A program made the position numbers and the translations under genes. Below are positions 14,514-64,000 of a DNA stretch of 64,000 nt, piece after piece (within the stretch, counting starts at the first letter, position 1; each line of letters begins with the position of its first letter). Below the pieces are notes generated by a model. It was given only the letters and a program-made list of their open reading frames with translations, was not told where the DNA came from and did not search any database. The DNA is taken from the NCBI RefSeq assembly GCF_001442615.1, contig NZ_LMXN01000006.1:1-64000 (forward strand), given 5' to 3'. The stretch comes from Algoriphagus resistens (GTDB taxonomy: Bacteria; Bacteroidota; Bacteroidia; Cytophagales; Cyclobacteriaceae).

Positions 14514-14600
14514 ATGAAATCGAGCATGTCGAAAACGACACACACCGGGATGACTTTAATTCATGCGAGATTCCATATGGCCTTTTAAAGACAAAATTAC
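14514..14600 (+). repeat. Leader-ORF/hairpin element, copy A
   Basis: The left arm ATGAAATCGAGCATG (14514-14528) pairs with the right arm CATGCGAGATTCCAT (14562-14576) at 12 of 15 positions. A nested GTCG-AAAA-CGAC stem follows the left arm. The copy starts 7 bp after the upstream stop codon, and the right arm ends about 30 bp before the hydrolase ATG. It contains an intact ORF of 24 codons (MKSSMSKTTHTGM...HMAF, stop TAA 14586-14588). Other copies are at 44427, 44543, 50959 (minus) and 56469 (minus). It may be a leader ORF or a REP-like element. Confidence 0.75.
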
Positions 14601-14606
14601 AGTCAT

Positions 14607-15491
14607 ATGAAAAGAAAATTAACCTATTTTGTACTGGCAATTTTGACTTTGGCAGCGTGTAACAACAAAAAAGAAACAGAAAACACTATGCAGATTTCAG
14701 CACCTAAGGACATAAAAAAAACCGGCTATTCCGAAGTGAACGGACTGCAAATGTATTACGAGATTTACGGCCAGGGTAAACCATTCGTTCTCATCCACGG
14801 TGGTGGATCAACCATACAGTCAAACTTTGAAAAGGTCATTCCGCTATTCGCAAAAAACAGACAGGTAATAGCCGTAGAATTGCAGGCCCACGGAAGAACC
14901 AGCGACCGAAACGCTGACCTTTCATTTGAACAAGATGCAGATGACGTTGCTACACTCCTGAAAAATCTACTCATTGACAAAGCGGATTTTCTAGGCTTCA
15001 GTAATGGGGGAACAACCACTTTGCAGATTGCCATTCGCCACCCTGAACTGGTCAATAAACTAATTTTAGGCTCTACACTTGCCAAACGCAACGGAGTCCC
15101 TGAATGGTTTTGGGGCTTTATGGAAAATGCCCGGCTGGAAAATATGCCCGAACAATTAAAGGAAGCCTACATGAAGGCTACACCGGACTCCAATGGCCTA
15201 CAGGTAATGCACGACAGGGATGCAAAGCGGATGATTAATTTCAAAGACATTGAAGACGGGCAACTCGAATCCATAAAAGCACCGACTTTGATCATAATCG
15301 GAGATAAAGATGTGATTACCCCAGAACATGCACTTGAACTTCACAGACAAATTGCAAACGCTGAACTGGCGATAATTCCGGGCGGACATGGCCAATATAT
15401 CGGGGAAATCACAACCCTAACACCTGACTTTAAAGAGAGTGATCTTGTAGTTCCGATGATTGAAAAATTCCTTGATAAGAAGAACGACTGA
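14607..15491 (+). CDS. Alpha/beta-hydrolase fold lipoprotein
   Basis: 294 residues. The first 18 residues form a lipoprotein signal peptide with lipobox LAAC (Cys at ~18), so the enzyme is probably anchored in the cell envelope. The hydrolase fold follows: oxyanion-hole region LIHGGGST (~62-69), nucleophile elbow G-F-S-N-G-G (Ser at ~133), acid residue in IIGDKDVITP (~233-242), and catalytic His in PGGHGQY (~258-264). The substrate is unknown; small esters, lactones or C-C bond substrates are possible. Copy A of the leader-ORF/hairpin element occupies its 5' region. The gene may be read through from the marR-like pair, with a 100-bp gap. The family call is secure, the function is not. Confidence 0.88.
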   Translation: MKRKLTYFVLAILTLAACNNKKETENTMQISAPKDIKKTGYSEVNGLQMYYEIYGQGKPFVLIHGGGSTIQSNFEKVIPLFAKNRQVIAVELQAHGRTSDRNADLSFEQDADDVATLLKNLLIDKADFLGFSNGGTTTLQIAIRHPELVNKLILGSTLAKRNGVPEWFWGFMENARLENMPEQLKEAYMKATPDSNGLQVMHDRDAKRMINFKDIEDGQLESIKAPTLIIIGDKDVITPEHALELHRQIANAELAIIPGGHGQYIGEITTLTPDFKESDLVVPMIEKFLDKKND

Positions 15492-24955: not shown

Positions 24956-25099
24956 CTACCAGTTCCAACCCATCTCAACCAACTTGTCAGTAGCCACAAC
25001 AATAAAGATCATATCCAATTCACTTCTCGTGTAACCGCCGGTTGTTTCAACCAATTCCTCGGAGCTGAGCTCCACTACATTCAATTGTTCTAAATTCAT
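24956..25099 (-). CDS. GG-leader secreted peptide precursor 1
   Basis: 47 codons, below usual annotation cut-offs. The first 22 residues are a double-glycine leader (MNLEQLN...ELVETTGG) identical to those of peptides 2 and 3. The GG pair is the expected cleavage site of the C39-peptidase transporter encoded upstream in the same orientation. The predicted 25-residue core (YTRSELDMIF...EMGWNW) has no Cys and ends Trp-rich. A conserved leader with an unrelated core is typical of bacteriocin or signal-peptide precursors. A terminator lies 26 bp downstream. No modification enzyme is nearby, so the mature peptide may be unmodified. Confidence 0.85.
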   Translation of the reverse strand: MNLEQLNVVELSSEELVETTGGYTRSELDMIFIVVATDKLVEMGWNW

Positions 25100-25290
25100 G
25101 ATTTTCTGATTTTAATACGTGAATAATAACTAAAACTTTTTGTCGCGCAACGAATCTAAGGTAGTGAAGCACAGACCTCACTTCAAGGCACATTTCAGAA
25201 GCGTGGAAACAAATCCAGAAAACGATCCCATTGGGTTTGTATGCGTTTCAACACTTTCCAGATAGCACTCGGTATCACCGCTTTAACAGT
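25100..25290 (-). repeat. Duplicated upstream block, copy 1
   Basis: The sequence upstream of peptide 1 (to about 25290) closely resembles the sequence upstream of peptide 3 (25747-25970). Shared stretches include a GTTGCGC(A/G)AC dyad, an ATCCAGAAA(A/G)CGATC segment and TATCACCGCTT-like ends. It indicates duplication of a unit containing promoter region plus peptide gene. Next to the start codon a 46-nt leader (AGTTTTAGTTATT...CACGTATTAAAA) is shared by all three peptides. Confidence 0.7.
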
Positions 25291-25305
25291 GCATGCTTTT
25301 TTACA

Positions 25306-25324
25306 TAAAAAAGGTGCCGGCACA
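25306..25324 (-). terminator. Terminator after GG peptide 2
   Basis: The perfect dyad GTGCCGGCAC (25314-25323) is followed on the minus strand by a run of Ts (complement of 25307-25312), 21 bp after the peptide 2 stop. The flanking TGAATCATTGT motif is also present after peptide 1, so the terminator region was duplicated with the gene. Confidence 0.65.
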
Positions 25325-25344
25325 TGAATCATTGTGCTTAAACG

Positions 25345-25497
25345 TTAGTTCCATCCATTCGCCTCCCATACCGCATCCAAAAGCCGGTTATACGCTTCGG
25401 GTGTCACCGCAAAGATCGCAGCTAAGTCACGACCGCCGGTTGTTTCAACCAATTCCTCGGAGCTGAGCTCCACTACATTCAACTGTTCTAAATTCAT
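25345..25497 (-). CDS. GG-leader secreted peptide precursor 2
   Basis: 50 codons. The 22-residue leader is identical to that of peptides 1 and 3 and ends ETTGG. The core of 28 residues (RDLAAIFAVTPEAY...WEANGWN) is amphipathic-looking and Cys-free, and ends in WN like peptide 1. It lies between the other two precursors on the minus strand, each preceded by the same short leader sequence. It should be processed and exported by the C39 transporter. The biological activity (antibacterial peptide or signal) is not known. Confidence 0.85.
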   Translation of the reverse strand: MNLEQLNVVELSSEELVETTGGRDLAAIFAVTPEAYNRLLDAVWEANGWN

Positions 25498-25599
25498 GAT
25501 TTCCTGATTTTAATACGTGAATAAATAACTAAAACTAGTTAGAAAAAGGAGCCATCAATACCGGCGCCATATAAATTAACTAAGATATTAGGACAACAT

Positions 25600-25746
25600 T
25601 TAATAGTCTAGATCCCAATATACCATTGCATCAGTCCATGCCATGTTAAGAAAAGCAAAGTTCCGTACAGGTTCAGCTTTCCCTCCTGTTGTTTCCACCA
25701 ATTCCTCGGAGCTGAGCTCTACTACATTCAACTGTTCTAAATTCAT
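25600..25746 (-). CDS. GG-leader secreted peptide precursor 3
   Basis: 48 codons. The leader is the same 22 residues as in peptides 1 and 2. The core of 26 residues (KAEPVRNFAFLNMAW...YWDLDY) has two Trp and an acidic aromatic end. It is the precursor closest to the transporter genes, about 315 bp downstream of the ABC transporter stop on the same strand. No clear terminator follows it; a GGCGCC dyad is present but lacks a T-run. Confidence 0.85.
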   Translation of the reverse strand: MNLEQLNVVELSSEELVETTGGKAEPVRNFAFLNMAWTDAMVYWDLDY

Positions 25747-25970
25747 GATTTTCTGGTTTTAATACGTGAATAAAATAACTAAAACTTATTTCTGTTGCGC
25801 AACAAACCTAAGGTAGCAAAGCACAGACCTTACCTCAACGAACAATTCAGAAACGTGGCAACAAATCCAGAAAGCGATCACCTTGGGTTTGTATCTGTTT
25901 CAACACATCGTATCATCATGTTCCGGATAGAGCTCGGCATCACCGCTTCAAAATGCCCTCCTGTGAGTGT
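25747..25970 (-). repeat. Duplicated upstream block, copy 2
   Basis: This is the counterpart of the block at 25100-25290, lying upstream of peptide 3. It holds a perfect TTGCGCAA dyad near 25797. The whole 25747-26061 gap has no gene. It may carry an internal promoter that lets the peptides be expressed more strongly than the transporter. Confidence 0.65.
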
Positions 25971-26061
25971 ACCTCGGCTTTGCAGGAAAAAATTCGAAAA
26001 CAGACTATAAACAAACCAAAGGCACCACAGCAGGGAAATCCTGTTCACTTTTTCGGATTGA

Positions 26062-28227
26062 TCACACTTCGCTCAGAAATACGGGGACTTGCTGACGCCA
26101 CAACTGGTGATAATCTCCTTTTCTTTCCATTAACGCAAGATGGCTGCCCTCTTCCACAACAGTCCCAGATCGCATCACCACGATTTGGTCAGCCTGAGCC
26201 ACCGTCCCGAGTCTATGGGCAATCAGGATGATCGTCTTCCCCTGGTCACGCATACTTATCAAAGCTTGCTGGATGTATTGTTCGGAAAGCGGGTCCAAAG
26301 ATGAAGTGGCCTCATCCAGGATCAGTATTTCCGGATTACGGTACAAAGCCCTTGCGATAGCCAAGCGTTGACGCTGGCCACCGGATAAAGTGGCGCCGTT
26401 TTCACCGATATACGTATGGAAACCAGCCGGAAGTTTTTCGATAAACTCCATCATTCCCAAACTGGTACACACCTGAATCAGCTGGTTCATATCGGGATCA
26501 AAGTCCCCCACAGCAATATTCTCGATCACATTGCCGGCAAACAGGTCTATCTGCTGGGGCACCACACTCACCACGCGGCGCAGGCTTTCGTGGCTGAGAT
26601 AACGGATATCAAAATCCCCGATAGTAATACTTCCCTCCCTTATCGGATAGATTCCTTGCAAAATAGACAGAAGCGTGGTCTTCCCCGAACCACTTTCCCC
26701 GACCACGGCCGTGATCCTTCCTTTTGGAATAACCAGATTCAGGTTATCAAAAACCTTGGTTCCGGACCCGTAACGGAACTGTACCCCTTTGAAACGAATG
26801 TCCCCCACCATTTCTGGAAGCAGGTCTGCTCTTTTCCCGGCTTCTTCCTGCTCCAGATCCATGATCTCAAACAAACGGTCGGCGGCGATCATTGCGTCCT
26901 GAATAGTGCGATTCATCCCGATCAAACTACTGACCGGCGCGGTAAAATAGCCGACAATCGCATAAAACGACAACAGTTCACCCGGCGTAATTAGCGTATC
27001 GAGCACAAAACCCGCTCCTACCCACAACAACACTATTGTGAGCAAGCCCGAGGTAAATTGGCCTGAATTGCCGATCCACAGTGCATTTACCGAAGAACGG
27101 TACATGGTGTCCAGGAAGCGGATAAACCGATTTTCGGTTTTCAGGTTGGCATACTCTTCCAACCCAAACCGCTTCACTGTTCCCACAGCGTTTACCGATT
27201 CCACCAACTGGGATTCCAGGTCGGCAGAATGTTCCATGACCTTGCGTTGGGTCTTCCTGTTAATCTTATTGGAGATCACGTAAATCAACGCATACAGGGG
27301 TACCACCAACAGCATGACCAGGGCCAGTTTCCAATAGTAACTGAACATCAAGGCAAAAGAAAAAACAACAATGAAGCAGTTTACTGCAAAGGTGATCAGT
27401 ACATCATTGATAAAAACCCGGATTTTCACTGCATCATTGATCCTGGAGATTATTTCTCCGGTACGCATTGTGTCAAAAAAGCGTTGAGGCAACCTGAGCA
27501 GGTGCTTATAGTAACCCAAAATAAGCCGGGCATCAATATGCTGCCCTGTTTTGATGGTAAGTAGTGTTTTGACGTGGTTGATAAAAGTTTGAACCAGTAG
27601 CAGCACGACCATCACCACTCCCATCAGATTCAACAGGTTACGGTTGGCATTCGGGATGACCTGATCCACTATTTTCTGTAGGAAAATGGAGGTAGCCAGT
27701 CCCAGAACCGTATAGCAGGCCGCTCCCACCAATACCTGTAGCAACACACTACGGTGCGGGTGCAACAGGAAACCCAGACGCCTGAGGACAGACACTTTTT
27801 CACTTCCTTGCTTAAACTCTTTTCCCGGTGCCAACAACAGCAATACTCCGGTCCATTTAGCTTTAAAGTCACTATGGGAAAGTTTATGGAGGCGTCCATC
27901 GGCGGGATCCATCACATGAACGGTCGTCTTGGTGACCCGATATACCACCACAAAGTGATGCAGTCCTTCTCCCACTACCAGATGGGCAATGGCAGGCAGT
28001 GGAACTTGGGGTAGGGTGTCCCATGGACACTTCACTCCTTTGGCCACAAACCCCAGCTTCTCCGCCGCCTCAATCAGTCCCAGCACATTCGTTCCTTTTT
28101 TATCTGTCGATGCATATTGGCGGATACGGGCTATTGGCAGGTTCAGCCTAAAATGGTTGGCAACCGAAACCAGGCAGGCTGCCCCGCAGTCGGTCATATC
28201 ATGCTGCTTTACTTTTATTTTAGACAT
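26062..28227 (-). CDS. Peptidase-containing ABC transporter (C39 peptidase, membrane domain, ATPase)
   Basis: 721 residues with the complete PCAT layout. The C39 peptidase domain (~1-135) has catalytic Cys14 (TDCGAACLV), His91 (LHHFVVVYRV) and Asp107 (VMDPADG). A six-helix ABC membrane domain follows (~160-440). The ATPase (~475-715) has Walker A GESGSGKTT (~510), signature LSGGQ (~614), Walker B ILILDE (~634) and an H-loop IAHRL. It should cleave leaders after GG and export the cores across the inner membrane. The four GG precursors around it are the natural substrates. It starts 9 bp after the HlyD-type gene, so the two form an operon. All active-site residues look intact. Confidence 0.95.
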   Translation of the reverse strand: MSKIKVKQHDMTDCGAACLVSVANHFRLNLPIARIRQYASTDKKGTNVLGLIEAAEKLGFVAKGVKCPWDTLPQVPLPAIAHLVVGEGLHHFVVVYRVTKTTVHVMDPADGRLHKLSHSDFKAKWTGVLLLLAPGKEFKQGSEKVSVLRRLGFLLHPHRSVLLQVLVGAACYTVLGLATSIFLQKIVDQVIPNANRNLLNLMGVVMVVLLLVQTFINHVKTLLTIKTGQHIDARLILGYYKHLLRLPQRFFDTMRTGEIISRINDAVKIRVFINDVLITFAVNCFIVVFSFALMFSYYWKLALVMLLVVPLYALIYVISNKINRKTQRKVMEHSADLESQLVESVNAVGTVKRFGLEEYANLKTENRFIRFLDTMYRSSVNALWIGNSGQFTSGLLTIVLLWVGAGFVLDTLITPGELLSFYAIVGYFTAPVSSLIGMNRTIQDAMIAADRLFEIMDLEQEEAGKRADLLPEMVGDIRFKGVQFRYGSGTKVFDNLNLVIPKGRITAVVGESGSGKTTLLSILQGIYPIREGSITIGDFDIRYLSHESLRRVVSVVPQQIDLFAGNVIENIAVGDFDPDMNQLIQVCTSLGMMEFIEKLPAGFHTYIGENGATLSGGQRQRLAIARALYRNPEILILDEATSSLDPLSEQYIQQALISMRDQGKTIILIAHRLGTVAQADQIVVMRSGTVVEEGSHLALMERKGDYHQLWRQQVPVFLSEV

Positions 28228-28236
28228 CAGGTAAGC

Positions 28237-29397
28237 TTATAGATTTGGATTGAGCCAGTCATCTGCCTTATCGTGTAAAAGCTGGGACAGTGTCCGCTCT
28301 GCCACCTGAAAACGGGCCTGAAGGCCCATCCCCTTCCTGAGTTTGCCTTCATAGCCATTGGGCAGAGTCAACGAGTGCCGATCAAGCGCACATTTCACCA
28401 GAAAGAAAAAGGTGTTGTTCTGCCCCATCACAACATCATCAGAAATATCCAGGACACGCCCCTCTACCATTCCCCACTGGTTGTAGTTGAACGCGTCTAC
28501 CTGAAATCGTACCGGCATCCCGGTACGTAGCAAGCCAATATCCCTGGGCAGCACCTGTACCTCAGCGATCAGCCCGGAATCCGGCGAAATTTCAGCCAGG
28601 GTTTCTCCCAAAATCATGAAACTTCCTGTTTGCGCTCCATTGAACTGTTGGATGGTACCGTCCATCGGAGCCTCCACGGTGTATAACTCCCGCTCTTTGT
28701 CCAGCTGTTCTTTTTGGGCAGTCAGTTCGGCCGACTCCAAGTGCAGTTGGTTCAGCTCAGTTTGCCACTGGCTCACTTGCCGATCATGCAAAATCCGTAA
28801 CTGCGACTCCGCTTTCTCCAACGCGAACACATCCTTTTCAAATTCCATATCGGGGATCACTTTACTCTGGTGCAGCTTTTTCTGCCGGTCGTACTGGACC
28901 TGCGCTTGGATCAAGTTCAATTTAGCCTCTTCCAATTGTTGTCTGAACAGGTTGTACTGTCGCAAATAAAGTGAAGTGGCCAGAGATAGTTCAGGCAGCT
29001 CCTCTCCTATCAGTATCCCGGTCAACTGGGTAAGGTCAGCTATCCGCTTTCTCAACTCGCGCTGCCTCTCAGCTACATATCCGTCCTGTCTTTCCAGCAG
29101 GTCTGCCTGGAGCGTAAACAACACCGTCCCCGCCTTCACATACTGGTTTTCCAGGACAAATACCTCATTGATCCTCCCGTTAACTGGTGATTTGACCGTA
29201 TTCCGCTCACTGATCGGCCTTAGTACCCCCACTGCATTGACAGATACGGTCACTTTAACAAAAAATAGGGAGACGAAGCCTATAACCAAAAATGACACGA
29301 TCAACTGGTAGATGATCTTGGTTCCCGTACCGTGCCGGTGAAAATGGCTTTCAAGGGAAAATTCGATGATTTCGGCAGGAAAGATTCGTTTCATCAT
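28237..29397 (-). CDS. HlyD-family membrane-fusion/adaptor protein
   Basis: 386 residues. A short cytoplasmic N terminus and one membrane helix (~28-50) are followed by a biotinyl-lipoyl-like segment (NEVFVLENQYVKAGTVLF, ~93-110), a long alpha-helical hairpin (~120-230), and the second half of the lipoyl and barrel domains (YTVEAPMDGTIQQF). This is the usual partner of a C39-peptidase ABC exporter, linking it to an outer-membrane channel. No TolC-like gene is in the window. It is first in the exporter operon. Two adjacent ATGs (29397, 29394) are possible starts. Confidence 0.92.
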   Translation of the reverse strand: MMKRIFPAEIIEFSLESHFHRHGTGTKIIYQLIVSFLVIGFVSLFFVKVTVSVNAVGVLRPISERNTVKSPVNGRINEVFVLENQYVKAGTVLFTLQADLLERQDGYVAERQRELRKRIADLTQLTGILIGEELPELSLATSLYLRQYNLFRQQLEEAKLNLIQAQVQYDRQKKLHQSKVIPDMEFEKDVFALEKAESQLRILHDRQVSQWQTELNQLHLESAELTAQKEQLDKERELYTVEAPMDGTIQQFNGAQTGSFMILGETLAEISPDSGLIAEVQVLPRDIGLLRTGMPVRFQVDAFNYNQWGMVEGRVLDISDDVVMGQNNTFFFLVKCALDRHSLTLPNGYEGKLRKGMGLQARFQVAERTLSQLLHDKADDWLNPNL

Positions 29398-44248: not shown

Positions 44249-44422
44249 ATGATAAACCTATTCATCAAAAAAGCAGAACCTATAAACATCCACTATCAGG
44301 AGGATGAAACCACCAAAACCGCCATAGACTGCTAGGACAATCAAGAGGTCTATCCGAATTCATCTTATATCTTTCACATTTTGTTGGTTACCGATAAACA
44401 CCCCATAAAAAATCAATCATAA
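44249..44422 (+). pseudogene. Small broken ORF with in-frame TAG
   Basis: An ATG at 44249 opens 28 codons (MINLFIKKAEPINIHYQEDE...), then TAG at 44333-44335, and the same frame continues another 28 codons (DNQEVYPNSSYIFHILLV...) to TAA at 44420. Both halves look protein-like, so this may be a degraded small gene. No family was recognised. Confidence 0.35.
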
Positions 44423-44426
44423 TCAC

Positions 44427-44546
44427 ATGAAACCGAGCTTGCCAGGAGTCAAGCTTGCCCCCCTACCTACAGGTGCACACACTGTGATGGTTATATGGAA
44501 TTCAATATTGCATGCGCCCCTAGAAAGACAAATTATAAACGGATGA
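44427..44546 (+). repeat. Leader-ORF/hairpin element, copy E (diverged)
   Basis: This diverged copy keeps ATGAAACCGAGC, CACACACTGTGATGGTTATA, GCATGCG and AGACAAATTATAA in order, with an insertion of about 24 bp. It encodes an uninterrupted 39-codon ORF (MKPSLPG...APLERQIING). Its TGA overlaps the ATG that opens copy B at 44543, making a tandem E-B pair. Its C-terminal RQIING resembles the RQILNT of copy D. Confidence 0.6.
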
Positions 44547-44630
44547 AATCGAGCATGACGGGCGGACGTCACACACCGGGATGATTATAATGCATGCGAG
44601 ATTCCATCTGACCATTTTAAAATGGTAATA
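44543..44630 (+). repeat. Leader-ORF/hairpin element, copy B
   Basis: Left arm ATGAAATCGAGCATG (44543-44557), right arm CATGCGAGATTCCAT (44593-44607), with a nested GACG...CGTC stem. The right arm ends 28 bp before the ATG at 44636. Compared with copies A and D it has 2 extra bases after the left arm, so the MKSS frame ends early at a TGA. Another frame still ends in a TGA overlapping the ATG at 44636. Confidence 0.75.
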
Positions 44631-44635
44631 AACAG

Positions 44636-45088
44636 ATGAAACTACATATTCCTGAACTAACTCCCGACAAATTCTTACGTAAGGAACTGGAGATTTATCA
44701 GAACCTGGACAATGAAAACTTTGGTGAACAATTAGCATTGAGGGTCGCCCAAAAATTGAAAGCGAACCCAACAGAAAGTGGCGGGCTTTATCACGCGCAC
44801 CGGGATTATTGCGGGATGGGGCTATACATCCACAACGGCAAATTCACCTTAGGAACAGTAAATGATGGACGCGGGCCGTATCCCATTGTTGCCGATTTTG
44901 ATACCGAAGCCGCATTTATAAGTTGGCTGGCCTATGAAAGCGACCAAAGTATGGCCATGTACGGTGAGCAGTTCAATAACCAGACCCTTACCAAACTACG
45001 TCTGGAGTGGTTCCTGGAGGAGGATTATAGTTCGGTATGGAATGCGTACTGTTTTTACTTAAGAAAAAGAGAGGAAACAAATAGATAG
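44636..45088 (+). CDS. Cytoplasmic protein of unknown function
   Basis: 150 residues, no signal peptide or membrane helix. Visible features are a Gly/His-rich middle (YHAHRDYCGMGLYIHNGKF) and an acidic, aromatic C-terminal half (RLEWFLEEDYSSVWN). Size and acidity are reminiscent of small immunity proteins, but no family was recognised and no toxin is adjacent. Its 5' region is copy B of the repeated leader element. Decayed fragments lie on both sides. Confidence 0.6.
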   Translation: MKLHIPELTPDKFLRKELEIYQNLDNENFGEQLALRVAQKLKANPTESGGLYHAHRDYCGMGLYIHNGKFTLGTVNDGRGPYPIVADFDTEAAFISWLAYESDQSMAMYGEQFNNQTLTKLRLEWFLEEDYSSVWNAYCFYLRKREETNR

Positions 45089-49331: not shown

Positions 49332-50870
49332 TTAATTGTATCCAGGATTTTGGTACATGCGCTCGGGATCGAGTTGGTATTCATCAAATGGAATTGGGTA
49401 AAATCTATCTTTCTCCGAGAAATTCTGAAGATTAGCAATGCCGTAGGCTGACTGGTCTTTGCTCTTGAAAAACTGAACCAATTCAGGAATAGTAAAGGCT
49501 CTAAGTAAGTCGTACCAGCGCTTCTGCTCGAAAGCTAATTCCACTCTTCGCTCATGAAGTATCGCCAGCTTCAAGCTGGGATAGCGTGACACATAATCAG
49601 GATTTTGCAGAGCCTGCTCATAAAGCGGAAGTCCTGCCCTTTCCCTCACCTGATTCAGCAAAGCAATTGCTTCTGCGGTATTTCCCAGACGCTCATTTAC
49701 CTCTGCCAGCAACAAGATCACATCTGCATAGCGCATCATAATGTGGTCGTTTCCACCAAAACCGTTTACCCCTGCCGCATCACTTACATCACGGAACTTG
49801 GAGATGAAGTATTCCTGAACTCTGGAATCTTCGGCATAATTTACAGAAAAGGTTTTCCTCGGATCATTCGATTCATACTCATTCACCAAGTCCAGATTCA
49901 CACGGGTCCCGCTTCCTGTAGCCGGCCTTTGTGAATTGATAGTTTCGCCCAGCGCTTGGTTGTTTCTGGCTACCGCAGAACTAAGATCCTGATCTCCCTG
50001 ACGGTAAACAATCTGAAATATCAATTCCGGATTAGTAGATTTCTGGTCCACATCAAAAACTGATTCATAGCTAATCTCTTTCAAGTCTCCAAAGGTTCTT
50101 TTGGAGTAGGCTTCCTCCAGATTTTTCTTGGCCAGTGTGAAAAATTCACTCGGACTCTTACCAGGTATCTGATTGCTGCCCATGGTGAGATACACCTCTC
50201 CCAGCAAAGCCAAAGCTGCCACTTTGGATACTTTCCCCTTACCCGACACCGGTTGATGATCGGGCAGCGAGCTAGCAATAGCCACTTCCAGATCGGCAAT
50301 GATCTGTGCATAGATATTGGCTTCTGCTTCCCTAAAAGTCACCTCTTCCAATTCATCCGGCGTTTTCACTTCCCGGATTACTAAGGGCACAGCTCCCCAT
50401 TTTCTTACCAGGTGATAGTAAGCCAACGCTCTCAAATAGGTTGCCTGAGCAAGGTGGTTACTCCTTAAGTTTTCATCTGAATAAGTAACTATTTCTATGT
50501 TATTGATCACGTAGTTGGCCCGGGAAATGATCGTATAGAGCGCAGACCAATGATTTTTTAGAAACGTATTACTTGGAATCAGGGAGAAATCATTGAACTG
50601 AAAAGGCTCCCCGGCACTGGATTGGTTGTCATTTCTTCCCATGTCGTCGCTTCGTTCATCAATATAGACGCCGCTGCTTTCCCCCAGCGCACTGTTGCTC
50701 CGAATAGCTGCATAGATACCGTTGACTGCTGCTTCCACATCCGAAGGTGCTTTCATATATTCACCTGCAGGCACTGCATTTGGATCAGATAGATCCAAGA
50801 AATCTTCCCCACAGGAAAAGAGTGCAGCCGTACTGATGATGGCAAAGAATATAGCAATGTATTTTTTCAT
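49332..50870 (-). CDS. SusD/RagB-family nutrient-binding lipoprotein
   Basis: 512 residues, normal for SusD. The lipoprotein signal has Cys20 (AALFSC). The family start EDFLDLSDPNAVPAGEYMKAPSDVEAAVNGIY is followed by the TPR-like helices (RANYVINNIE, ATYLRALAYYHLVRKWGAVPL) and the C-terminal ERRVELAFEQKRWYDLLR motif. It should sit on the cell surface as the lid of the SusC channel. The last gene of the operon, it is followed by a strong terminator. Between SusC and SusD lies copy C of the leader-ORF/hairpin element, whose ORF ends in a TGA overlapping the SusD ATG. Confidence 0.95.
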   Translation of the reverse strand: MKKYIAIFFAIISTAALFSCGEDFLDLSDPNAVPAGEYMKAPSDVEAAVNGIYAAIRSNSALGESSGVYIDERSDDMGRNDNQSSAGEPFQFNDFSLIPSNTFLKNHWSALYTIISRANYVINNIEIVTYSDENLRSNHLAQATYLRALAYYHLVRKWGAVPLVIREVKTPDELEEVTFREAEANIYAQIIADLEVAIASSLPDHQPVSGKGKVSKVAALALLGEVYLTMGSNQIPGKSPSEFFTLAKKNLEEAYSKRTFGDLKEISYESVFDVDQKSTNPELIFQIVYRQGDQDLSSAVARNNQALGETINSQRPATGSGTRVNLDLVNEYESNDPRKTFSVNYAEDSRVQEYFISKFRDVSDAAGVNGFGGNDHIMMRYADVILLLAEVNERLGNTAEAIALLNQVRERAGLPLYEQALQNPDYVSRYPSLKLAILHERRVELAFEQKRWYDLLRAFTIPELVQFFKSKDQSAYGIANLQNFSEKDRFYPIPFDEYQLDPERMYQNPGYN

Positions 50871-50959
50871 CTTAAGTTTTGTTTTTCAATGGTCATTTGG
50901 AATCTCGCACTGTGAATAATCATCTGGCTGAGTGTCTTTTCCGCGGTGCTCGATTTCAT
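50867..50959 (-). repeat. Leader-ORF/hairpin element, copy C (between susC and susD)
   Basis: The minus strand starts ATGAAATCGAGCACC (50959-50945); the right arm is at about 50897-50911. Compared with the other copies the left arm changed T to C and the right arm A to G at paired positions, keeping the base pair. The 30-codon ORF (MKSSTAEKTL...IEKQNLR) is uninterrupted and its TGA (50869-50867) overlaps the SusD start ATG. Confidence 0.75.
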
Positions 50960-55123: not shown

Positions 55124-56377
55124 TTAAGGGTCAAGAGGTTCATCGGTATCTATCTGTAGTGAGCTGATCAAGGGGTAAAATTCCGCAGTGGTGGCAGAAA
55201 GGCGCTTTCCATTGGAATAAGGATGATAACCCAATTCCTTCATGCATCTATTGTGCATCGCATCAGAATAGATGTATGCGCTTTGGGCCGGGGTGGTCAC
55301 GGTTATGGAAGGCCTGTCCATAGGAAATCCATACCGAAACATGATCCTGGCGGTGTTTCTCATGTTGGTGGTGGTATGCCGTGCATGCGGATCTATGAGA
55401 ATCGCTGACTCGGGCACTCCCAATTTGAGCAGGTAGCGTTTCATTTCAATCGCCTCATTGTGAAGCACCTTATAAGGGTGTACATACCCACCAGAGACCA
55501 GAATAAAAGGTGCTTTCTTTTTGCTATATGCCTCAAAAGCCAACTGGCATCTTAGTACCCCTCCAGAACTGAGGCTGTCGAGGTAATTCTCCGTTCCTGC
55601 ACCTGGAATAAGGATGAGCGGGTAGTTATATTCTTTCCAATCTGTAGTTTTCACAGCTTGGTAGGCGGCCATATTTTCATGCTCCATCATGGGTTCGAAG
55701 TCCCCTGCCCGTTCAAACCTGGCCATAGCCAACGCATCCATGGCATAGCCCAGCGTCAATTGATAAAAGAGTTTTGAATCTCCATACTTCACAGAGGCCA
55801 GTTCATTCAACGCCTGGATATTTGCCCGGTAGGAAGAGGATTGAAGGCTCATTCCCAATGAGTCTATGTTGGGATAATTAGGCTTTTGCCCTTTCGCATA
55901 TACTGAGATGATATGGTTAATTGCCGTGGCATCCTGCTTCCAGGCGTTGGCCAAGAAGACCGCTGGATCATCTGCCACATTCATCTGGTACATTCCGGAA
56001 GGCGCCAGGTGCTCTTTGGGAATTTTGGATAAAGCACTGTGTTGAGTTGCAAGTTGCACTAGACGCTGGGCTACCAACTCAATCTCTTGGGCAGTAAAGC
56101 CCATTTGAGCTGGATAACAAGAAGCTTCTTTTCCACAGTTTATCAGTGAATTGGACAAGAGCACATGTTTATCAGAAGCCATTTCTGCTAAAATGACATC
56201 TTTTTCGAGTAAGGATTTCAGTTCTGGCATCTGCTCGATCAGGTGGAGCAGGTAAACATTTTTTGATTGTGCAGGTTTATCCCCTAAAACTGGCCTGTAG
56301 CTGGATTGGGGACTGTCCTGTCCCCAGCAAAAGCTCGCTAAAAGCAGCAATAAGAGGAATAAAGGCAGCTTTTTCAT
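55124..56377 (-). CDS. DUF218 / YdcF-like protein, exported
   Basis: 417 residues with a signal peptide (~1-19, LLLLLASFCWGQ). The DUF218 domain (~235-365) is seen in PLILIPGAGTENYLDSLSSG, FILVSGGYVHPY, NEAIEMKRYLLKLGVPESAI and DPHARHTTTNMRNTARIM, the last carrying the conserved polar pattern of the family. DUF218/ElyC/YdcF proteins are linked to envelope metabolism or nucleotide-like ligands, but reactions are poorly defined. It is the first gene of the operon with the propeller-like, SusC and SusD genes. Copy D of the leader-ORF/hairpin element occupies its 5' region, with a TGA overlapping this ATG. Confidence 0.82.
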   Translation of the reverse strand: MKKLPLFLLLLLLASFCWGQDSPQSSYRPVLGDKPAQSKNVYLLHLIEQMPELKSLLEKDVILAEMASDKHVLLSNSLINCGKEASCYPAQMGFTAQEIELVAQRLVQLATQHSALSKIPKEHLAPSGMYQMNVADDPAVFLANAWKQDATAINHIISVYAKGQKPNYPNIDSLGMSLQSSSYRANIQALNELASVKYGDSKLFYQLTLGYAMDALAMARFERAGDFEPMMEHENMAAYQAVKTTDWKEYNYPLILIPGAGTENYLDSLSSGGVLRCQLAFEAYSKKKAPFILVSGGYVHPYKVLHNEAIEMKRYLLKLGVPESAILIDPHARHTTTNMRNTARIMFRYGFPMDRPSITVTTPAQSAYIYSDAMHNRCMKELGYHPYSNGKRLSATTAEFYPLISSLQIDTDEPLDP

Positions 56378-56469
56378 GTGTTTAGAATTTGTCTTTTAAA
56401 GGCCATATGGAATGTCGCATGCCTTATAATCATCCCAGTGTGTGACGCTGGAGTCATGCTCGATTTCAT
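56374..56469 (-). repeat. Leader-ORF/hairpin element, copy D
   Basis: On the minus strand it opens ATGAAATCGAGCATG (56469-56455); the right arm lies at 56407-56421. The ORF of 31 codons (MKSSMTPASHTGMII...FKRQILNT) is uninterrupted and its TGA (56376-56374) overlaps the ATG of the DUF218 gene. It shares GGCCTTT(T/A)AAAGACAAA with copy A beyond the right arm. Confidence 0.78.
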
Positions 56470-63288: not shown

Positions 63289-64000
63289 ATGAATAATTTT
63301 TTACTTAAAACAACCTGGATACTTTGGGCATTAACCAGCAGTTCTGCACTGGCCCAAGAGGTCTTCATCAATGAAATCCATTACGATAATTCCGGAACGG
63401 ATATCGGAGAAGCTATCGAAATTGCAGGGCCTGCAGGAACTGATCTTTCCGAATGGTCATTGGTACTTTATAATGGGGCAAACGGAACTGTTTATGATAC
63501 AGACAATTTAGCCGGATCAATTCCTGACTTAGGGAACGGTTATGGAGTTGTTGCCCTTTCTTATCCTTCAAATGGCATACAAAACGGATCCCCTGATGGA
63601 ATTGCCCTTATCCAAAATGGCACCGTCATTCAATTTCTAAGCTATGAAGGTTCATTTCAGGCAGTAGGCGGTCCAGCTGATGGAATGAGCAGCTCGGATA
63701 TTGGTGTGAGTGAAGCAGGTACCGCGCCTGTTGGCAGTTCTCTTCAGCTCTCAGGAAACGGAAAGGTATATTCTGATTTTGCATGGCAGAACTCTTCGAA
63801 CGCTACTTTTGGGACCTTCAATACCGACCAATCCTTTCAGGGTACGCCAGTACTTTTCATCAATGAATTTCATTATGACAATACTGGTACAGATGTAGGT
63901 GAAGGTATAGAAGTCGCGGGTACTGCAGGGCTGGATCTTACCGGGTATTCTTTGGTACTTTACAACGGAAATAATGGGGCTGTTTATAATACCATCGCCC
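63289..64000 (+). CDS. Secreted lamin-tail-domain protein, 3' end off window
   Basis: 237 codons are visible and the frame is open to the right edge. A signal peptide (~1-23, SSSALAQ) is followed by two tandem lamin-tail (LTD) domains of about 165 residues: VFINEIHYDNSGTDIGEAIEI, WSLVLYNGANG and, repeated, LFINEFHYDNTGTDVGEGIEV, YSLVLYNGNNG. LTD repeats in Bacteroidetes occur in large surface or secreted proteins, often nucleases or adhesins; the catalytic part, if any, lies outside the window. The start ATG at 63289 is chosen because the ATG at 63261 runs into a stop. Confidence 0.88.
   Translation, partial: MNNFLLKTTWILWALTSSSALAQEVFINEIHYDNSGTDIGEAIEIAGPAGTDLSEWSLVLYNGANGTVYDTDNLAGSIPDLGNGYGVVALSYPSNGIQNGSPDGIALIQNGTVIQFLSYEGSFQAVGGPADGMSSSDIGVSEAGTAPVGSSLQLSGNGKVYSDFAWQNSSNATFGTFNTDQSFQGTPVLFINEFHYDNTGTDVGEGIEVAGTAGLDLTGYSLVLYNGNNGAVYNTIA

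Follow-up and report, generated by a model that had tools for sequence, protein, structure and literature searches.

Five copies of a repeat, four of them before unlike genes

The window, by which we mean the whole stretch of 64,000 nt analysed here, holds five copies of a repeat of ~92 bases, denoted units A to E, and a repeat search that used no model links all five. The units and the genes behind them are listed with the scores of R1, a sequence-only model built from 53 units that include four of the window copies (A, B, D and E), so that those four match by construction.

14514-14610, plus strand: unit A, an F1 unit before an alpha/beta-hydrolase gene (R1 85.6 bits, E 1.3e-25)
14607-15491, plus strand: alpha/beta hydrolase gene (Pfam), 294 aa, its start being the ATGA of unit A
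44403-44430, plus strand: possible but weak remnant of another unit's 3' end, ahead of unit C (R1, E 0.063)
44427-44546, plus strand: unit C, divergent and with a longer 5' part (R1 3' part 44471-44546, 38.7 bits, E 5.8e-11)
44543-44639, plus strand: unit D, an F1 unit in tandem behind unit C (R1 match 44547-44639, 69.6 bits, E 1.3e-20)
44636-45088, plus strand: gene of a 150-aa protein, its start being the ATGA of unit D
49332-50870, minus strand: SusD family gene (Pfam), 512 aa, its start being the ATGA of unit B
50867-50959, minus strand: unit B, an F1 unit between a 1087-aa ORF and susD (R1 match 50871-50959, 61.7 bits, E 3.9e-18)
55124-56377, minus strand: DUF218 protein gene (Pfam), 417 aa, its start being the ATGA of unit E
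56374-56469, minus strand: unit E, an F1 unit of 92 nt together with the ATGA that starts the DUF218 gene (R1 93.1 bits, E 6.4e-28)

Unit A starts 7 nt past an upstream ORF, the end of unit C is the ATGA of unit D, and the 1087-aa ORF adjoining unit B is SusC-like, judging by position alone. Short reading frames open inside the units. The frame of unit A has 24 codons and is closed by TAA; those of units B (30 codons), C (an MKPS ORF of 39 codons) and E (31 codons) end in a TGA that overlaps the next ATG, and that of unit D is closed by an early stop. The preliminary description of this DNA had reported five copies of about 90 bp, a short open frame in four of them, an ATGA overlap in three and quite different genes downstream. 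The repeat search and R1 over the window returned the five copies at the positions reported, the frames and overlaps were found as described, and Pfam agreed on the alpha/beta hydrolase, SusD and DUF218, while a Pfam search with the 150-aa protein gave no family.

The window also carries other repeats. Three near-identical stretches (92-98%) lie on the minus strand at 25034-25126, 25432-25524 and 25681-25773; the first reads MNLEQLNVVELSSEELVETTGG, with a double glycine. They adjoin a C39-peptidase ABC exporter and an HlyD protein (26062-29397, minus strand), and the region 25034-29397 resembles a small precursor cluster for a bacteriocin or natural product. In addition, a direct repeat of 137 nt (63364-63500 and 63856-63992) is 72% identical, its copies being 492 bp apart.

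The repeat forms families and head-to-tail arrays across the genome

In the whole genome the repeat is far commoner than the five copies of the window. R1, scoring the best 150 of 2391 candidate stretches, gave 171 matches at E <= 0.001. Some of these matches may be fragments of one unit or members of other families, and weaker copies may have gone undetected. A strict pattern had 150 raw matches, some sites being counted twice, compared with 0 for the reversed control; the genomic sample read below consists of 58 stretches around the strict-pattern matches listed.

Units are mostly 89-93 nt long and stand in head-to-tail arrays with a period of about 92, in which F1 is mixed with a second family, F2 (21 places in the genome within 3 mismatches), and with a sister family, F3. 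A further family, F4, was found in other species. All units of one array share their orientation, and each finishes on an ATGA that opens the next unit or gene. At several loci of other species (L118, L136, L149, L153, L200, L201 and L328-L330) units contain an extra small hairpin, for example TCCCGAT..ATCGGGA, which replaces or adjoins the CATNTG strand of stem P3 (described below), as though a second element had entered the unit.

Units end on ATGA, mostly at a start codon

The last four bases are ATGA in 189 of the 194 units that have a recognised 3' motif, in a test that did not require the TGA; ordinary called starts read ATGA in 74 of 126. The 5' end is likewise ATGA in 232/243 F1 units, the rest having TTGA, ACGA, GTGA, CTGA or ATGT, and seven arrays of the genome start exactly on the stop of an upstream ORF. 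Scored by script, 54 of the 75 array ends lead into a gene, defined as an ORF of at least 60 codons or a called start; 17 lead into none and 4 lack a recognised end. Of 778 control ATGAs outside units, 224 start a called ORF; the 554 others lie in non-coding DNA and start none. The difference (54/17 against 224/554) gives a Fisher P of 5.9e-15, with a gene test that was laxer for units (60 codons) than for control ATGAs (100 codons).

Reading the array ends manually, we dropped two false units and added eight ends that had been missed or lead to a gene by way of another unit, and 62/73 then reached a gene, a few ends sharing one array. Because the other 11/73 do not, and because genome G009 has one unit in antisense orientation at a gene's 3' end (L237), the start-codon bias could reflect survival instead of targeting.

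Relatives carry empty sites at the same ATGA

Two loci identified by Pfam were compared with 29 relatives. Between kdtA (kdotransferase) and rsgA (RsgA GTPase) our genome has two units. Of the 29 relatives, 19 show a bare shared ATGA (gap -4), and G028, the best DNA match, is one of them. Unit-like remains are left in G019 and G021, short overlaps or spacers of other kinds stand in the remaining eight, and none of the 29 has an intact unit. At gatC our genome carries one unit. In L206, L207, L211 and L214 the overlap is bare: a 245-codon upstream frame stops on the TGA of the shared ATGA, and gatC starts on its ATG. G009 has two units there, G028 and G017 have divergent ones, and the remaining relatives have other spacers; one of the 29 relatives' loci lacks gatC, and a unit is present in 3/28 other genomes.

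At both loci of our genome the upstream gene still has its stop in the 5' ATGA, and the downstream gene takes its start from the 3' ATGA. Since relatives have a bare shared ATGA where our units have ATGA on both sides, the units are precise insertions at ATGA start codons that leave ATGA at either end. As in MITEs, the same target bases flank the units and relatives offer empty sites, at rsgA and at gatC. Together with the constant 3' ATGA (189/194) and the array ends that open genes (54/75), the empty sites strongly support one half of the preliminary description, namely a mobile or multi-copy element fixed just before start codons.

A covarying fold includes the start codon

The units are predicted to form three stems, P1 to P3. 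P1 and P3 are placed on unit E below, the pairing of P1 coming from A2 and the covariation of P3 from the family, not from this copy.

56411-56465, minus strand: stem P1 of unit E, arms 56455-56465 and 56411-56421, AATCGAGCATG / CATGCGACATT
56375-56409, minus strand: stem P3 of unit E, CATATG (56404-56409) against CACATG (56375-56380)

P1 of unit E has the G.A/A.G mismatch pair that is usual in F1 and one more mismatch of its own. P3 consists of CATNTG inside the unit and CANATG at the unit end, the ATG of which starts the next gene or unit; in unit E a single A.C mismatch falls on the variable base, and CACATG contains the DUF218 start codon. The variable bases of P3 are complementary in 193/275 distinct matches, compared with a mean of 83 and a maximum of 110 in 10,000 shuffles, and the variable base is A opposite G in 29/275 units.

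On A2 we counted the named structures for paired cells, covariation score and changed pairs, five measures in all. Paired cells made up 92.5% versus 87.6% in shuffles (0/500 shuffles as high), and the covariation score was 0.159 versus 0.088 in shuffles (0/500 as high), slid versions reaching at most 0.050. Pairs with both sides changed (6 versus 4.4; 30/500 shuffles as high) and further pair types (18 versus 16.1; 61/500 as high) were not decisive, and RNAalifold gave a weak consensus of -0.99 kcal/mol. Across families P1 keeps its pairing with other letters, in arms picked by hand: AATCGAGC/GCGAGATT, AATGCCC/GGGCATT, AATACCC/GGGTATT, AACCCGC/GCGGGTT and AATCTCC/GGAGATT.

Minimum-energy folding of single copies was uneven. 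The RNA fold of unit E has neither P1 nor P3 (z 0.37 versus its shuffled sequence). That of unit A contains both, yet with z -1.27 it is not better than shuffles, and the same holds for an F1 consensus-like sequence, whose fold has P1 and P3 (z -1.25 as RNA, -0.41 as DNA). An F3 sequence did not fold more strongly than shuffled (z -0.56). F2, F4 and a distant unit did (z -4.15, -3.89 and -4.30), and for three F4 units and a G037 unit the minimum-energy fold includes P1 and P3 (z -2.1 to -4.3). The case for the predicted F1 fold rests on covariation, its single-copy folds being no better than shuffles. Two genomes from other families of the order, G220 and G037, have units of the same plan, with a P3 of CATCCG/CGGATG in G220; three of their five matches stand directly before ORFs of 211-350 aa, one before another unit and one, G220d, before a 19-codon frame.

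A stem that holds the start codon raises the alternative of a genome-wide translational control element, in which P3 hides the start until a trans-acting factor or the passage of ribosomes opens it, the genes form a coupled regulon and spread is secondary. Position and orientation fixed at starts, a covarying helix that includes the start codon in several families, and a loop, CACACA..GGATGA..AT, that is largely conserved across families all speak for it. On the other side, the downstream genes examined show no theme (GatC, RsgA, an amino-acid-kinase-family protein that we take to be PyrH, SusD, DUF218 and an alpha/beta hydrolase), most relatives' orthologues have no unit, as counted above for gatC and rsgA, and some units precede no gene. 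We consider such a primary regulatory role unlikely.

The short reading frame is not what is conserved

In our genome the frame ends at the next start, or at most 20 nt before it, in 74/95 F1 units: the ATGA overlap accounts for 44 and a stop within those 20 nt for 30, while 13 have an early stop, 4 read through and 4 have no recognised end. The 211 F1 units of other genomes divide into 53 with the overlap, 83 with a stop at most 20 nt before the next start, 35 with an early stop, 4 that read through and 36 without a recognised end. Translational coupling may thus be present in many copies.

The preliminary description had gone further and suggested a family of coupled leader peptides, in which the peptide of 24-39 residues, or its translation, is the selected function. 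The ATGA overlap in 97/306 F1 units, with 113 more stopping at most 20 nt before the next start, would fit such a peptide. So would the ratio of nonsynonymous to synonymous changes (N/S), which is 2.80 in frame versus 4.26 expected and lower than in other frames; taken alone, it would favour coding and leans towards that earlier view. It is ambiguous, however, because these bases are also under constraint from the stems. Outside P2 the frame had no nonsense change, a test of little power in a consensus that allows only three stop-making single-base changes.

Other observations speak against the peptide. The distance from the first ATG to the core departs from 36 in 47/260 F1 units, and the difference is a multiple of three in 10 of these 47. 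Variability by codon position outside P2 is about flat (0.105, 0.088 and 0.116 in 128 units of intact length), and the frames of F2 and F3 are different and shorter. Since length changes do not come in threes and codon positions vary about equally, the ORF is not the conserved feature, and on these two tests we rejected a leader peptide under selection, which we now regard as very improbable. We read the short ORF as largely a by-product rather than a conserved peptide. What stood of the coupled leader element first proposed is its mobile or multi-copy character before starts; the peptide frame did not hold, being variable (early stops in 13/95 units of our genome and 35/211 of others) whereas the 3' ATGA is near-constant.

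Search for an enzyme that moves the units

The preliminary description had named a REP-like intergenic repeat as its main alternative, and this proved closer to the evidence than the leader peptide. In its specific form, in which the repeat is of REP type and its mover a Bacteroidetes-type RAYT (Y1) transposase (one of subclass 2.6 in PMC6006769, as far as the available part of that paper describes it), it would account for an extragenic, imperfect hairpin with a mismatch bubble (A.G/G.A, in P1 of F1) in as many copies as the R1 count above gives. It would also account for an internal guide that pairs with the end, a device that the same part of PMC6006769 ascribes to IS200/IS605 and REP. Y1 (PF01797) matches occur in 34/36 genus genomes, unit-poor ones included. 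The canonical tag and the neighbouring RAYT are missing, however. The 5' foot of the hairpin has no GT[AG]G (GTAG/GTGG), the foot of P1 being ATGAA in the units read, and genome G014 has 73 unit matches and no Y1 match. When the Y1 loci were compared with unit consensuses, a unit lay beside the gene at 1/34 (L237), where the Y1 has other hairpins. At 20 loci with weaker Y1 matches, 17 of which show a Y1-like frame, there was no unit, the sole match being 13 nt in L302. Thus neither our own and the genus genomes nor the flanks of the 34 and 20 loci supported Y1/RAYT or IS605 as the mover, and we hold the RAYT version to be extremely improbable.

Several Y1 loci deserve a description of their own. 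In L237 (G009, 1180-2240) the Y1 gene sits amid several GTTCC..GGAAC-like hairpins, then TTTGGT/TCTGGT, perhaps a REP-like family belonging to that gene, and the unit antisense at its 3' end is an F1 unit. L296-L315, from several genomes, encode Y1-like proteins, many of about 184-190 aa, with the motifs SNH.HL and YIH.NP; they resemble subclass 2.6 in the part of PMC6006769 available. The Y1-like matches of our genome at C12 and C6 are weak or broken. Its loci L059 and L060 have IS605-type pairs, tnpA with what is presumably tnpB, with no unit-like ends.

Reverse transcriptase (PF00078), searched in 36 genomes, was absent from our own genome and from G004, G023, G024 and G035, each with 40 or more unit matches; with PF00078 missing from five unit-rich genomes, a reverse transcriptase or group II intron was not supported as the mover either. 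We noticed no autonomous copy, with 5' and 3' ends around a gene, among 89 orphan 5' and 50 orphan 3' matches, many of which are units with extra small hairpins, units of other families, decayed or cut-off units, or chance matches. Similarly, no long element with unit ends, as a parent transposon would have, was noticed in 229 sequences (1.31 Mb), and among the Y1 and reverse-transcriptase candidates no enzyme was both present where units occur and flanked by them.

Distribution is patchy

Among 35 relatives in the genus sample, 14 have 40-82 matches (best 72 candidate stretches), 7 have 7-14 and 14 have 0 or 1. Because ten of these last 14 are small genomes, 67-83% complete, the patchiness may partly be missing sequence; G022, G026 and G030 have 0 or 1 match though 99% complete. 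The 80 stretches listed come from Algoriphagus, Cyclobacterium, Lunatibacter, Aquiflexum, Pleomorphovibrio and Lunatimonas, from a Cyclobacteriaceae MAG, and from single MAG contigs labelled Marivirga and Flavobacteriaceae. At E <= 1e-5 a match was found in at least 50/148 genomes of the family and at least 20/241 of the order, both lower bounds, as filters were strict and only the best candidates were scored.

Viral contigs gave 0 exact-pattern matches and plasmids no blastn match to a unit, so carriage by phage or plasmid was not supported. A known RNA family was rejected as well, the window having 0 Rfam matches at the gathering score; one array gave two snoRNA matches only (E 1.4 and 3.7). 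A literature search found no description of such elements in print.

A probable mobile element of start codons

Alongside the copies, ATGA ends, empty sites, tandem arrays and covarying stems, all directly observed, we propose that the repeat is probably a miniature, non-coding, hairpin-forming mobile element, or one that was mobile recently in each lineage, which inserts at ATGA. Against mobility stands that no transposition was observed in the data examined. Insertion would occur at an ATGA that in most surviving cases is the start codon of a gene, in the sense orientation. The old ATGA would then keep any upstream stop and the new 3' ATGA would become the start of the gene. The A/T-rich stretch and CANATGA at the element end would bring a working start site, so that the gene survives, and repeated insertion into the same ATGA would build head-to-tail arrays of one or several families. 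What moves may be a single-stranded form of the fold, DNA or RNA, recognised by that fold. P3, which holds the start codon, may tame translation until ribosomes arriving via the old start open it, and the open short frame, whose stop is often near the new start, would be a by-product.

A bolder version sees a new class of start-codon-seeking elements: a single-stranded moving form whose guide pairs with the ATG end, directed to ATGA starts, rebuilding a regulated start codon at each landing and uniting unrelated genes under one switch, with an enzyme not yet tied to a known transposase family. We put it forward tentatively, as possible rather than probable.

Insertions at start codons are expected to be among the most harmful kinds, and here they are tolerated many times in one genome, also before gatC and rsgA. 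They are apparently tolerated even before such housekeeping genes because the element supplies its own translation start. Bacteroidota rarely use Shine-Dalgarno sites, and the paired empty and filled alleles are a natural series for start-site strength and translational coupling in this phylum. The units also suggest that in Algoriphagus-like genomes predicted gene starts and called small ORFs may often be mistaken.

Comparison with known systems

The repeat behaves like a REP or MITE element but lacks their tag, terminal repeats and transposase. Its ends, ATGAAATCG... and ...CANATGA, are not inverted, and P1 is internal, in contrast to the terminal inverted repeats of MITEs. With REP/REPIN and RAYT (TnpA-REP), as defined in the available part of PMC6006769, it shares short, imperfect, mismatched hairpins, many extragenic copies per genome and lineage variants. 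The units differ in their length of mostly 89-93 nt, in three stems and a conserved loop, in one orientation per array, in ATGA start-codon ends, and in having neither the GT[AG]G tag nor a cognate Y1 beside them at the loci tested.

IS200/IS605-derived elements, according to the same portion of PMC6006769, have an internal guide that pairs with the 3' end and a target tetranucleotide that flanks the left end, and P3 (193/275) is such a covarying pairing of guide and end. Unlike them, the units have no hairpin seen between guide and end, their guide is of 6 bp and Watson-Crick, and Y1 is missing in unit-rich G014. Enterobacterial RU/ERIC sequences are mobile intergenic sequences of 103-168 bp with a readable open frame (PMC2759123, available part); they belong to another lineage, and that part mentions no tie to start codons, so that the two are set apart by description, not by sequence. 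The TAACTGA repeats, found in five Bacteroidetes too, end a few nt from start codons and run mostly in one direction, as far as the available part of PMC4679880 reports, but they are direct repeats of a heptamer, whereas the element described here is an inserted, folded unit of 92 nt.
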